A DNA stretch of 41,953 nucleotides from Chitinophagaceae bacterium UBA7600. Its GTDB lineage: Bacteria > Bacteroidota > Bacteroidia > Chitinophagales > Chitinophagaceae. Below, piece by piece: positions 5,108 through 41,600 of the stretch (position 1 is the first letter of the stretch; the number at the start of each line of letters is the position of its first letter). The translations under genes and the position numbers were made by a program. The stretch spans positions 1 to 41,953 of the forward strand of contig DLKC01000080.1 of assembly GCA_002478885.1 (NCBI GenBank). Reading direction: 5' to 3'. The notes under the pieces were generated by a model that had not been told where the DNA came from, made no database searches, and worked only from the letters and a program-made list of their open reading frames with translations.

Positions 5108-5299
5108 GCCAGCTTTTGTTCCTTATTCAGTACCTGTTGTGTCACTCACTTCAGCGTTGCGAACGCTGTGCATCAATCTCTGCCGGAGAGCCATTTAAAA
5201 AGCCACACTAAAACGAAGTAAGCTTGATGCTAAGTCGTATGGTGCACAAGAGTGCGACGCAGGCAAAGCTTAATGCATATTCAACTGCCAGGTTTAAAA
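5108..5299. repeat. interspersed inverted-repeat element, copy 1 (diverged left arm)
   Basis: The right arm GCACAAGAGTGCGACGCAGG (5244-5263) is nearly canonical and continues into the usual outer segment, ending near GCCAGGTTTAAAA. The left arm is degenerate (TTGTGTCACTCACTTCAGC, 5137-5155) and is preceded by CCAGCTTTTGTTCC, which resembles the outer end of other copies. The total is about 190 bp. It lies between the GLPGLI gene and the convergent gene at 5321. Confidence 0.7.
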
Positions 5300-5320
5300 T
5301 GCCAATAAGTCAAGGAAGGG

Positions 5321-5833
5321 TTACATTAATTTTTTGGCTTCGTAGCTTAACACTTCTGCCACAATCTCGTGCAGCGACCCTTTTTTGTCTGTCATTAAAT
5401 ACTCCAGTAATATCTTACTCAAATCGAGACCTGTAGCAGGCGGTGGAAGTACATTGGCAAACTGGTTTATGATAAGCAAGTTCTGTTCTTTAAGATTCTT
5501 GAGCGCAGTCCACGCGTCTGCGCTTACATAAATCTGCTGCGTGATATTGTAATTGAACTCTTCCTTTATATTTTGAACAAGCATTTGCTGAAACTCCCTG
5601 GCAGAAGTTCCATGGTGCCCAATGCGACTGACAAGATTGGGTAATGCGATTCGTTCTGTTAAAAGAATTAGGCGCTCGTAAGCTTGTAATTGTATTTGCA
5701 AACTGCCCTTGCTATCGAAGGCAGACAATGTGTTCTTATTGTCTTTACTGTTTTTTGCGAACATAAGATAGATGGCGCCAACGGCAACAAACACCACGAT
5801 GATGAGAACAAGCAGAAGATTTTCTGTATCCAA
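5321..5833 (-). CDS. membrane-anchored conserved Bacteroidota protein (DUF7935-like)
   Basis: This small protein (170 residues from the TTG at 5833) has one N-terminal membrane segment (LLLVLIIVVFVAVGAIYLMF). A predicted helical cytoplasmic region follows, with the family-typical stretch LQAYERLILLTERIALPNLV. I recall similar proteins in Bacteroidota as an uncharacterised family. Its function is unknown. Start choice: the frame extends upstream to a TTG at 5878, but a TTTG and a TATTTTTG box 18 nt apart (5876-5879 and 5850-5857) overlap that region. Transcription would therefore begin near 5843, and TTG 5833 is the first usable start after it. No in-frame ATG lies before the membrane segment. 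It is divergent from the IscA-like gene. Confidence 0.75.
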   Translation of the reverse strand: MDTENLLLVLIIVVFVAVGAIYLMFAKNSKDNKNTLSAFDSKGSLQIQLQAYERLILLTERIALPNLVSRIGHHGTSAREFQQMLVQNIKEEFNYNITQQIYVSADAWTALKNLKEQNLLIINQFANVLPPPATGLDLSKILLEYLMTDKKGSLHEIVAEVLSYEAKKLM

Positions 5834-5849
5834 AGTTTTTTGATTTCTG

Positions 5850-5879
5850 CAAAAATAAGCCCGGGCCCTGTTCGGCAAA
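5850..5879 (-). promoter_or_regulatory. Bacteroidota-type promoter for the membrane-anchored protein
   Basis: On the minus strand, TTTG (5879-5876) and TATTTTTG (5857-5850) are separated by 18 nt, matching the TTTG/TAnnTTTG architecture. The transcript would start about 10 nt before the TTG start codon at 5833. Confidence 0.6.
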
Positions 5880-5934
5880 TGCTATATTTCCGTAAACCGA
5901 AAATACGAGTGCCCGGTACGATTTTTTGGCAGCT

Positions 5935-5942
5935 TATCTTTG
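5935..5942 (+). promoter_or_regulatory. -7 box of the IscA-like gene promoter
   Basis: TATCTTTG matches TAnnTTTG exactly and lies 18 nt before the ATG at 5961, so the leader would be very short. A clear -33 TTTG is not found at 18-20 nt spacing. Confidence 0.45.
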
Positions 5943-40867: not shown

Positions 40868-40885
40868 TGTAGTCTTTTTTGTTGG

Positions 40886-41353
40886 TTAAGCTTTTTGCAT
40901 AATGTCAGCAGCGGTCTTTACCGCCTTGCGGATGCGGGTATAGGTACCGCAGCGGCAAATCAAACCGCCCAGCGCGATGTCAATCTGCTTATCGTCCGGG
41001 GCAGGATTTTTCTTTAGCAATGCGGCCGCTGTCATGATGTGACCGCTCTGGCAATAGCCACATTGCGGCACCTGTTCTGCTATCCAGGCTTTCTGCACCG
41101 GGTGGGAATTATCTTCAGACAGTCCTTCAATGGTGGTGATCTTTTGATTTACTGCTGCAGAAACGGGCAGCGTGCAGGAACGGACCGCGTTGCCGTTCAG
41201 GTGAACCGTGCAGGCACCGCACTGCGCAATGCCACAGCCATATTTTGTTCCTGTTAAACCAACAAGATCGCGTATAGCCCACAGCAGCGGCATTTTTGCA
41301 TCTGCTTCAACCGTATAAGTCTTTTCGTTGATCTGTAAATTGTAGGTTGGCAT
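40886..41353 (-). CDS. 2Fe-2S subunit of molybdenum hydroxylase (IorA-like)
   Basis: This 155-residue protein carries both iron-sulfur clusters of the xanthine dehydrogenase family. A plant-type ferredoxin cluster is bound by Cys40, Cys45, Cys48 and Cys60 (YGCGIAQCGACTVHLNGNAV). A second, helical-domain cluster is bound by Cys98, Cys101, Cys133 and Cys135 (QCGYCQSGHIM, ICRCGTYTR). Electrons from the molybdenum centre pass through these to the cytochrome c. The ATG at 41353 gives the normal N-terminus MPTYNLQINEKTYTV; the frame extends to 41569 only by translating intergenic repeat sequence. The gene begins the three-gene operon. It has no signal peptide and probably travels through Tat with the large subunit. 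Confidence 0.95.
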   Translation of the reverse strand: MPTYNLQINEKTYTVEADAKMPLLWAIRDLVGLTGTKYGCGIAQCGACTVHLNGNAVRSCTLPVSAAVNQKITTIEGLSEDNSHPVQKAWIAEQVPQCGYCQSGHIMTAAALLKKNPAPDDKQIDIALGGLICRCGTYTRIRKAVKTAADIMQKA

Positions 41354-41370
41354 AGTGGAGATTTTGTGGC

Positions 41371-41397
41371 CCAAGTTACTAAAATTTATATGGGCAA
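41371..41397 (-). promoter_or_regulatory. candidate promoter of the Mo-hydroxylase operon
   Basis: On the minus strand TTG (41397-41395) and TAACTTGG (41378-41371) are separated by 16 nt. The -7 box differs by one base from TAnnTTTG. It lies 18 bp before the ATG at 41353. Confidence 0.4.
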
Positions 41398-41525
41398 GAC
41401 CATGGAGCCGAGCGAATTTATTTGGCAAAGGTCCAGGGTCAGGGGCCATGATTCCTCCACCGTTTATTTTACCCGGCCCTGTTGGTCCATAGGGCTGTTT
41501 TCCCGATATTTGAGCATGGATTAAA

Positions 41526-41600
41526 GGGGCCCGGCTTTTTCTCGGCTGCCGGGCATCGTTGCGTCGCACACTGGTACGGCATTACGTAATTAAGCCTTGC
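41526..41600. repeat. interspersed inverted-repeat element, copy 9 (left half only)
   Basis: The left outer end GGGCCCGGCTTTTT and the left core TTGCGTCGCACACTGGTAC (41559-41577) are present, but no right arm is found in the following 250 bp. It is a solo half element. Sequence immediately upstream (41459-41525) is GC-rich without an assigned function. Confidence 0.7.

Follow-up and report, generated by a model that had tools for sequence, protein, structure and literature searches.

A dispersed intergenic repeat with a near-invariant core in the Chitinophagaceae, tentatively of mobile origin

The 41,953-nucleotide contig DLKC01000080.1 of Chitinophagaceae bacterium UBA7600 (assembly GCA_002478885.1), the whole of which is referred to here as the window, carries nine intergenic elements, six paired and three single with 15 arms between them, which belong to a repeat family dispersed through this genome and through other genomes of the Chitinophagaceae. 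The repeat unit is a directional arm with an 11-letter core, of which there are several discrete types, chiefly A (TTGCGTCGCAC) and B (TTGTGTCACTC), and almost no intermediates. The core is nearly always either perfect or absent, which together with its several discrete types suggests that something reads it. The best explanation, which is held tentatively, is that these dispersed DNA repeats are specific to the bacterial family, derive from a mobile element and have their core read by a putative sequence-specific DNA protein. An earlier reading of the window, made from its letters alone and called the sequence-only reading below, had described nine inverted-repeat elements and proposed for them either a mobile element resembling miniature inverted-repeat transposable elements (MITEs) or repetitive extragenic palindromic (REP) sequences, or a selected structured RNA or DNA site. 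All nine sites are present where it placed them, and of its proposal the mobile element or selected DNA site is retained in view of the genome-wide family, the sharp ends, the patchy copy number and the signs of selection on a DNA site, while structured RNA and mobilisation by a Y1 or REP-associated tyrosine transposase (RAYT) are not.

Anatomy of the arm

From the outside inwards the arm consists of a T-tract, a CC-G-GC motif, the core 38 nt further inward and CTTGTAC; it is about 60-80 bp long and occurs singly or as an inverted pair, which encloses either a loop of about 40-135 bp or a gene. Aligned on 132 exact A cores from this genome, the signal starts at about -41, outward of which there is little conservation, and comprises T (67-85%) at -38 to -34, CC (83 and 75%) at -29/-28, G (74%) at -26, CTT (95-96%) at +12 to +14 and C (92%) at +18, with a weak signal to about +38. 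The T-tract and CC at a fixed distance before these cores bear out the claim that the copies share outer ends beyond the core. The consensus of 40 arms from other genera has CTATTnAnC before the core and CTATTCAGC after it, about 40 nt apart; these arms were picked by an exact core, and the invariance of the core within this set is a product of that selection of rows.

Neighbouring cores less than 300 bp apart are in the facing orientation ('+-') in 193 of 203 cases from five genomes, with ten '-+' and none on the same strand. Many cores have no partner, namely 236 of 400 in the one-contig genome G140 (partner window 400 bp) and 99 of 157 in this genome (300 bp). Terminal inverted repeats with sharp outer ends, as in MITEs, are present in the pairs and lacking in the single arms. 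The description as inverted-repeat elements holds for the six pairs of the window and not for its three single arms; singles are common genome-wide and some pairs bracket a whole gene. A strand polarity along the chromosome was considered for G058 and ruled out, minus-strand cores occurring in 4 of 20 loci and the strands being roughly balanced in most sampled regions.

Some copies carry more than the arm and a plain loop. B-type arms of G058 (locus L064 near 7895 and 12124, L065 near 1828) are followed by a common inner stretch, and in one pair of them the similarity continues for about 230 bp past the core and ends near AGACCTGCGCCAGTGT; this could be a related, longer element. Other simple dispersed repeats, such as GAACAGTGAACAATGAAC-like tracts or GTCGACCGTTGACC-like palindromes, are frequent in the loops of G140, G148 and further genomes.

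Invariance of the core

When arms were chosen blind to the core, by T-tract, CC-G-GC and tail alone, 88 of 97 contained an exact A or B core, six a core with one mismatch and three an unrelated sequence; exact cores were found in 25 of 29 such arms in this genome, 32 of 35 in G140, 26 of 27 in G058 and 5 of 6 in G148. Near misses are few, and in this genome barely exceed the chance number. The sample of this genome holds 132 exact A cores and 14 with one mismatch (about 7 expected by chance), and 38 exact B cores and 6 with one mismatch (about 7 expected). For B in G140 the numbers are 144 and 15 (about 13 expected). The 256 exact A cores of G140 are accompanied by 53 one-mismatch forms, of which 32, making up two more types, differ at the last position and 9 at a single different one; the remaining 12 are spread across nine positions, near chance. 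The flanks of random copies, unlike the core, are merely 42-46% identical. A core that stays perfect while its flanks drift makes the repeats look like sites that some putative protein must recognise. For comparison, the REP 16-mers of P. fluorescens are reported in 1053 exact copies and in 1249 when one substitution is allowed (PMC3116915).

Counted over 840 kb of G140, the core types are A (256), B (144), TTGCGTCGCAA (24) and TTGCGTCGCAT (8), other TTGNGTCNCNN forms occurring at most three times each. Paired elements of G140 combine them unevenly, with 60 A/B, 19 A/A and 3 B/B among 82 pairs. A/B pairs also prevail in G058 (16 of 22), and A/A pairs number 17 of 33 in the UBA7600 genome and 20 of 37 in G148; because A/A leads in these two, the A/B excess seen in 89 pooled pairs is not general.

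In the window, the assumption of one shared core is right for 13 cores, eleven exact A and two with one mismatch (5252 and 34474), and wrong for those at 5137 and near 21032 (core from 21040), which are of type B. The A core with up to two mismatches has 21 matches in the window against 10.7 expected, a number reached by 1 of 100 shuffles, and this loose pattern is thus weak evidence by itself; 11 of the 21 matches are exact A cores, of which about 0.02 are expected (2 x 41953 / 4^11).

Copy number and taxonomic distribution

The 12-mer GTTGCGTCGCAC occurs 963 times on the two strands of the 5.47-Mb genome and its reversed pattern not once, so that the further copies whose absence, according to the sequence-only reading, would have pointed to a chance motif are there in abundance. 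The B core with its tail (GTTGTGTCACTCACTTGTAC) is present in 130 copies, and a 20-nt A pattern with up to three mismatches has 1472 matches, which include B cores with the same tail. In a sample of 294 Chitinophagaceae genomes 163 have at least one match, and copy number ranges from 0 to 1304 per genome. The reversed control gives 0 to 3 matches per strand across these genomes, and counts of one or two are therefore no evidence for the repeat family. A lone GTTGCGTCGCAC at L038 (G234), in apparent coding sequence and without arm features, is probably such a chance match. Of 395 genomes sampled across the phylum, including 14 Chitinophagaceae, six contain the exact 20-nt A pattern; all six are Chitinophagaceae, and none of the 381 others has it. 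Among the matches listed, the repeat-bearing taxa are Segetibacter, Foetidibacter, Pinibacter, Paracnuella, Limnovirga, Lacibacter, Flavisolibacter and Niastella, together with assemblies named as Chitinophagaceae, Chitinophagales, Sphingobacteriales and Bacteroidota. Two 20-nt patterns match 12 and 10 stretches in 2.9 million viral contigs.

Copy number is patchy between species of one genus, and in this the repeat behaves as something that amplifies. With up to three mismatches allowed, the three genomes of genus g26 have 833 (G025), 6 (G121) and 0 (G190) copies, the species of g5 173, 181, 9 and 0, those of g12 30, 0, 0 and 0, those of g4 418 and 1, and those of g7 54, 0, 1 and 1, both single matches in the last looking like chance. 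These contrasts include genomes that are 85% (G121 and G190), 83% (G181) and 87% (G232) complete, and copies with more than three mismatches would escape these counts in any genome. The lack of slightly degenerate copies in the poor sister species suggests that the repeat family expands or is purged wholesale.

Placement between genes

The observation that all copies are intergenic extends to the genome at large. Only 2 of 171 cores lie more than 120 nt inside an open reading frame (ORF) of at least 150 amino acids in 442 kb of this genome, 290 kb of which is such DNA, and 1 of 432 lies deep in an ORF in G140. Gaps of at least 100 bp, delimited by ORFs taken with a simple longest-ORF rule, carry a core in all gene orientations: for convergent, divergent and tandem genes, respectively, in 24/31, 22/40 and 68/122 gaps of this genome, 61/76, 58/106 and 180/241 of G140, 24/35, 28/47 and 70/124 of G058, and 14/18, 11/21 and 57/96 of G148. 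In these four genomes the outer end of the arm lies at a median of 9-25 nt past stop codons and 70-80 nt ahead of starts.

Arms also face each other across genes. Among cores 300-1000 bp apart in five genomes, which leaves room for a gene, 59 are '+-', 16 '-+' and 5 on the same strand; at 1-2 kb the numbers are 69, 107 and 42, and at 2-4 kb 60, 181 and 109. Since '+-' dominates at 300-1000 bp, facing arms around a gene act as a unit at short range and are not random survivors. Over 3.4 Mb, facing arms enclose 161 gene blocks. The idea that the enclosed genes form a special cargo was rejected, as ordinary Pfam families occur inside and outside (matches in 17 of 20 interior genes scanned, of 64 eligible, and in 13 of 20 exterior genes, of 33); interior genes have a median of 224 amino acids against 309 and a G+C of 0.381 against 0.408, the mix of the two genomes being uncorrected in both figures. 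One element site, at L303:3540-4300 in G207 and L313:17560-18150 in G148, has the same outer genes and different small genes inside. Its left arm has a third core type, TTGCGTCGCAATC, and is the sole recognisable arm in one of the species. The small gene in G148 encodes a four-helix bundle that is presumably S23-like, and no second occurrence of this gene was met with in 2.4 Mb searched.

Persistence at gene ends and shared segments

Within genera the arms tend to stay at the ends of orthologous genes. Of 55 ortholog pairs, 15 have an arm no more than 150 nt from the 5' end in both members, 12 in one member and 28 in neither (odds ratio 13, p 1e-4); at 3' ends the corresponding numbers are 11, 19 and 25 (odds ratio 3.5, p 0.04). 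The persisting arms have the same orientation in 15 of 15 cases at 5' ends and 10 of 11 at 3' ends. Of 21 distinct orthologous arms, 17 keep the core type, three pair an A core with a B core and one pairs an A core with the CAA type; the identity of their outer parts is 0.505, compared with 0.419 at random. At one site common to G148, G207 and G069, which are of one genus, similarity is retained chiefly in the outer end and in the core and its tail, with one base of the core changed in G207; of the two other sites displayed, one is common to G148 and G207 and one has lost its core in G207. The invariance of the core and the persistence of arms at orthologous gene ends together argue for selection on a DNA site. 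Between genera, 160 pairs were compared after all rows from named records, among them some identical to one of the genomes, had been dropped (285 before). Here the 3' ends are associated (p 1e-6), which may reflect operon ends, and a conserved orientation of the arms was not shown for the 5' ends.

Near-identical copies are few; rows of at least 100 nt and 85% identity number 2, 4, 1, 0 and 3 in five samples. Sharing between copies is mosaic, with core-bounded segments alike and outer arms unlike. In L079/L080, L090/L092 and two elements of L304 the identity runs approximately from one core through the loop to the other core, and the outer parts differ. Two elements of L041 share one outer arm in addition to this stretch. 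A second core is missing from what the last two pairs share, which in L290/L300 is the outer arm and some of the inner side, and in L064/L065 the arm and about 230 bp inward. Over 36 loop-similar element pairs (72 sides), outer arms are 0.437 alike against 0.424 at random (p 0.5) and core-adjacent flanks 0.523 against 0.456 (p 0.05). For loops of at least 75 nt, 18 similar pairs are left, whose outer arms are about 0.43 alike on average (a mean taken by hand), as at random. The core types of loop-similar elements agree on 19 of 20 sides in samples other than G140. An association of elements with rearrangement breakpoints was considered as well: in one 17-kb stretch compared between two species, 5 of 5 synteny breaks fall in elements and 4 elements lie in conserved synteny. 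It is not claimed, because nearly every gap there holds an element and hence provides no control.

Proposed explanation

It is proposed that the arms are the ends of a formerly or still mobile element and that the core is the obligate recognition site of a putative DNA protein, which could be a transposase, a recombinase or a domesticated descendant of either. Arms would insert where genes tolerate them, in the free space between transcription units, after stops or upstream of starts, and after amplification in a lineage the sites would stay at the same gene ends. The stretch from core to core, cores included, would then pass between elements when their identical cores recombine, the outer arms remaining beside their genes; such recombination, rather than repeated insertion, may lie behind the shared segments.

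Several results weigh against this explanation. No cognate protein was found, Y1 being the sole family tested across genomes. An autonomous copy, that is a transposase bounded by element ends as the sequence-only reading had suggested looking for, was not found among the 20 of 64 eligible genes scanned between facing arms of this genome and G140, none of the Pfam matches being a transposase. The target duplications that it had likewise suggested looking for give no clear signal at the ends of 192 pairs, where the best of 768 settings for direct repeats of 2-9 bp yields 4 against 1.0 expected; in old copies a target duplication could be lost. No clean pair of a filled and an empty site was obtained, and persistence at 5' ends is not significant between genera (odds ratio 1.7, p 0.14). 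Of the 6 near-identical pairs displayed, 3 also resemble each other in some outer arm, and the similarity of loops comes partly from short loops of consensus arm sequence and other simple repeats. For G140, elements with similar loops have matching core types on 23 of 52 sides, which is the chance rate and speaks against an exchange of whole core-loop-core segments there.

Alternative explanations

The main rival, which is possible if unlikely, is a putative tag of the kind of a DNA uptake sequence (DUS) or uptake signal sequence (USS), in which the transformation machinery would prefer the core, and biased uptake with recombination would keep the copies identical by molecular drive. DUS/USS comprise about a thousand invariant short cores with dialects and inverted pairs between genes; they are restricted to families and are common in genes too. 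The Chitinophagaceae repeats have in common with them invariant cores in many hundred copies, a few discrete dialects, inverted intergenic pairs and family restriction. Roughly one thousand short cores of identical sequence amid variable flanks, and the sharing of core-bounded segments, also fit an uptake tag, which accounts for the invariance, the dialects and the patchiness between related species equally well as the best explanation. Its main failings are the near absence of cores from gene interiors and the long arm with a fixed outer end 38 nt off, in both of which the repeats are unlike DUS/USS.

Rather unlikely is a role as boundary or nucleoid-protein sites, in which the arms would bind a putative chromosome-organising or insulating protein at the ends of transcription units. 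The presence of a core in 52-80% of the sampled gaps of at least 100 bp, depending on orientation class and genome (four genomes), the invariant core and the constant orientation of arms at orthologous gene ends within genera are as such sites would have it. The arms are found, however, whatever the orientation of the neighbouring genes and at either end of a gene, and since some species of the same genus have no elements, any boundary service would be dispensable. A boundary function accounts for place and persistence and not for element-free sister species.

That the repeats are fossil MITEs without function, kept alike solely by RecA gene conversion, is quite doubtful. Correia elements or Neisseria miniature insertion sequences (NEMIS), enterobacterial repetitive intergenic consensus (ERIC) sequences, BOX and other MITE-like repeats are short, intergenic and modular, with inverted ends and a variable interior, all of which is common to the Chitinophagaceae repeats. 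These differ from them in that single arms are common, no target duplication was found at the pairs' ends and an invariant core sits in diverged arms. Diverged copies with few near-identical pairs and mosaic sharing at the cores would suit fossils; a core that is perfect or absent, in arms whose remainder is 42-46% identical in random copies, and the coexistence of at least two discrete core types are left unexplained.

Mobilisation by a RAYT/Y1 transposase, of REP sequences and their inverted doublets (REPINs) or of CGTC-tagged palindromes, is very unlikely. The REP/REPIN system with RAYT of P. fluorescens SBW25 (PMC3116915) is similar in its roughly one thousand intergenic copies, inverted doublets with variable spacers, and singlets; intergenic inverted doublets are the rule here too, though many cores are single, and A/B doublets are in excess in some genomes. 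In contrast to REP/REPIN, the Chitinophagaceae arm lacks a palindromic hairpin and is longer, and the repeat has several discrete core types, gene-bracketing pairs and no association with Y1/RAYT: of the genomes chosen for this test, 22 of 28 with elements and 24 of 30 without them match the family PF01797 (Y1_Tnp), which has no match in G140 with its 1304 cores, nor in G024, G071, G272, G222 and G052. The claim of Y1/RAYT mobilisation is not upheld by these numbers. Three Y1 genes occur in the UBA7600 genome, one with a B core inside its 3.3-kb locus and the others without a core. CGTC-tagged palindromic repeats are reported (PMC3733652) to have the following features: they often have TGTC for CGTC, form inverted dimers, with heterodimers preferred in some families, have no dedicated transposase, and are known from Bacteroidetes among other phyla; beside the tag they have a stem of 8-9 bp with a loop of 4-5 nt, and a short tail that is mostly CCA. 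CGTC or TGTC stands inside the Chitinophagaceae core as well; no hairpin follows the tag and the arms have neither stem nor fold. As the tests for a REP/REPIN hairpin and transposase, a CGTC stem and MITE duplications all failed, the repeat is assigned to the dispersed intergenic repeats, apart from the named kinds. By its working it stands near REPINs, CGTC-tagged repeats, MITEs and uptake sequences.

A structured RNA or bidirectional terminator, for which the inverted arms and the placement past stop codons might speak, is exceedingly unlikely and the corresponding claim was abandoned, since no covariation between arms was found in 89 pairs, RNAalifold on 40 arms gave a consensus fold of -0.3 kcal/mol with 3 invariant pairs, no compensatory pair and no palindromic hairpin, Rfam had no match at the gathering threshold at the element sites of the window, the T-tracts are found outside the arms, whereas an intrinsic terminator would have its own on the other side, and many arms are single. 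Partner arms in the same 89 pairs resemble each other no more than shuffled ones do, and at the three positions by which A and B differ their resemblance falls below that of shuffled partners (z -3.3 to -3.6).

Literature searches for REP or DNA uptake sequences in Chitinophagaceae and for intergenic repeats in Segetibacter returned nothing, with subscription journals mostly uncovered, and the core string and its complement turned up in four papers and one paper, respectively, whose subjects are unrelated as judged by the titles. REP is mentioned together with Bacteroidetes in 18 papers. No published description was found in the literature searched, which is no proof that the repeat is undescribed.

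Elements in the window

The elements of the window are listed in Table 1. Two further features lie nearby. A match to the DUF805b RNA (RF02914), a cis-regulatory motif, is located at 8852-8889 on the minus strand (41.7 bits, cut-off 35.6), and a separate AT-rich inverted repeat with arms of 37 nt that are 70% complementary occupies 41663-41845, just past the last element.

Table 1. Repeat elements of the window, with outer limits set by eye from the arm consensus
Element	Position	Strand	Cores
Paired element	5097..5302		B core 5137-5147 (+); A-type core, 1 mismatch, 5252-5262 (-)
Single arm	7972..8066	-	A core 8014-8024
Paired element	13140..13302		A cores 13180-13190 (+), 13252-13262 (-)
Paired element	16004..16229		A cores 16044-16054 (+), 16179-16189 (-)
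Paired element	20907..21090		A core 20947-20957 (+); B core 21040-21050 (-)
Paired element	26892..27110		A cores 26932-26942 (+), 27058-27068 (-)
Single arm	30875..30960	+	A core 30915-30925
Paired element	34340..34524		A core 34380-34390 (+); 1-mismatch A core 34474-34484 (-)
Single arm	41519..41605	+	A core 41559-41569

Implications

In the four element-rich genomes sampled, such a site is present in over half of the intergenic gaps of 100 bp or longer, a repeat load that is, to our knowledge, among the densest in bacteria. A bolder proposal, which is quite improbable, is that the arms are universal ends of transcription units and that a putative recombinase acting at the cores, perhaps with a preference for cores of a single type, swaps loops or whole genes among sites and neighbours. 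Integron attC sites are likewise imperfect inverted repeats with a variable middle that can adjoin genes; unlike them, the Chitinophagaceae repeats are dispersed genome-wide in both directions and form no one-direction array. If such module exchange were true, gene order and gene content at element sites would be a programmed shuffle and not random rearrangement. For the favoured explanation, a repeat of mobile origin with a protein that reads its core, finding this reader would explain how a non-coding site in a thousand copies stays exact across species, and would distinguish uptake tags from transposon ends and from chromosome boundary sites, a distinction that is difficult to draw by sequence.

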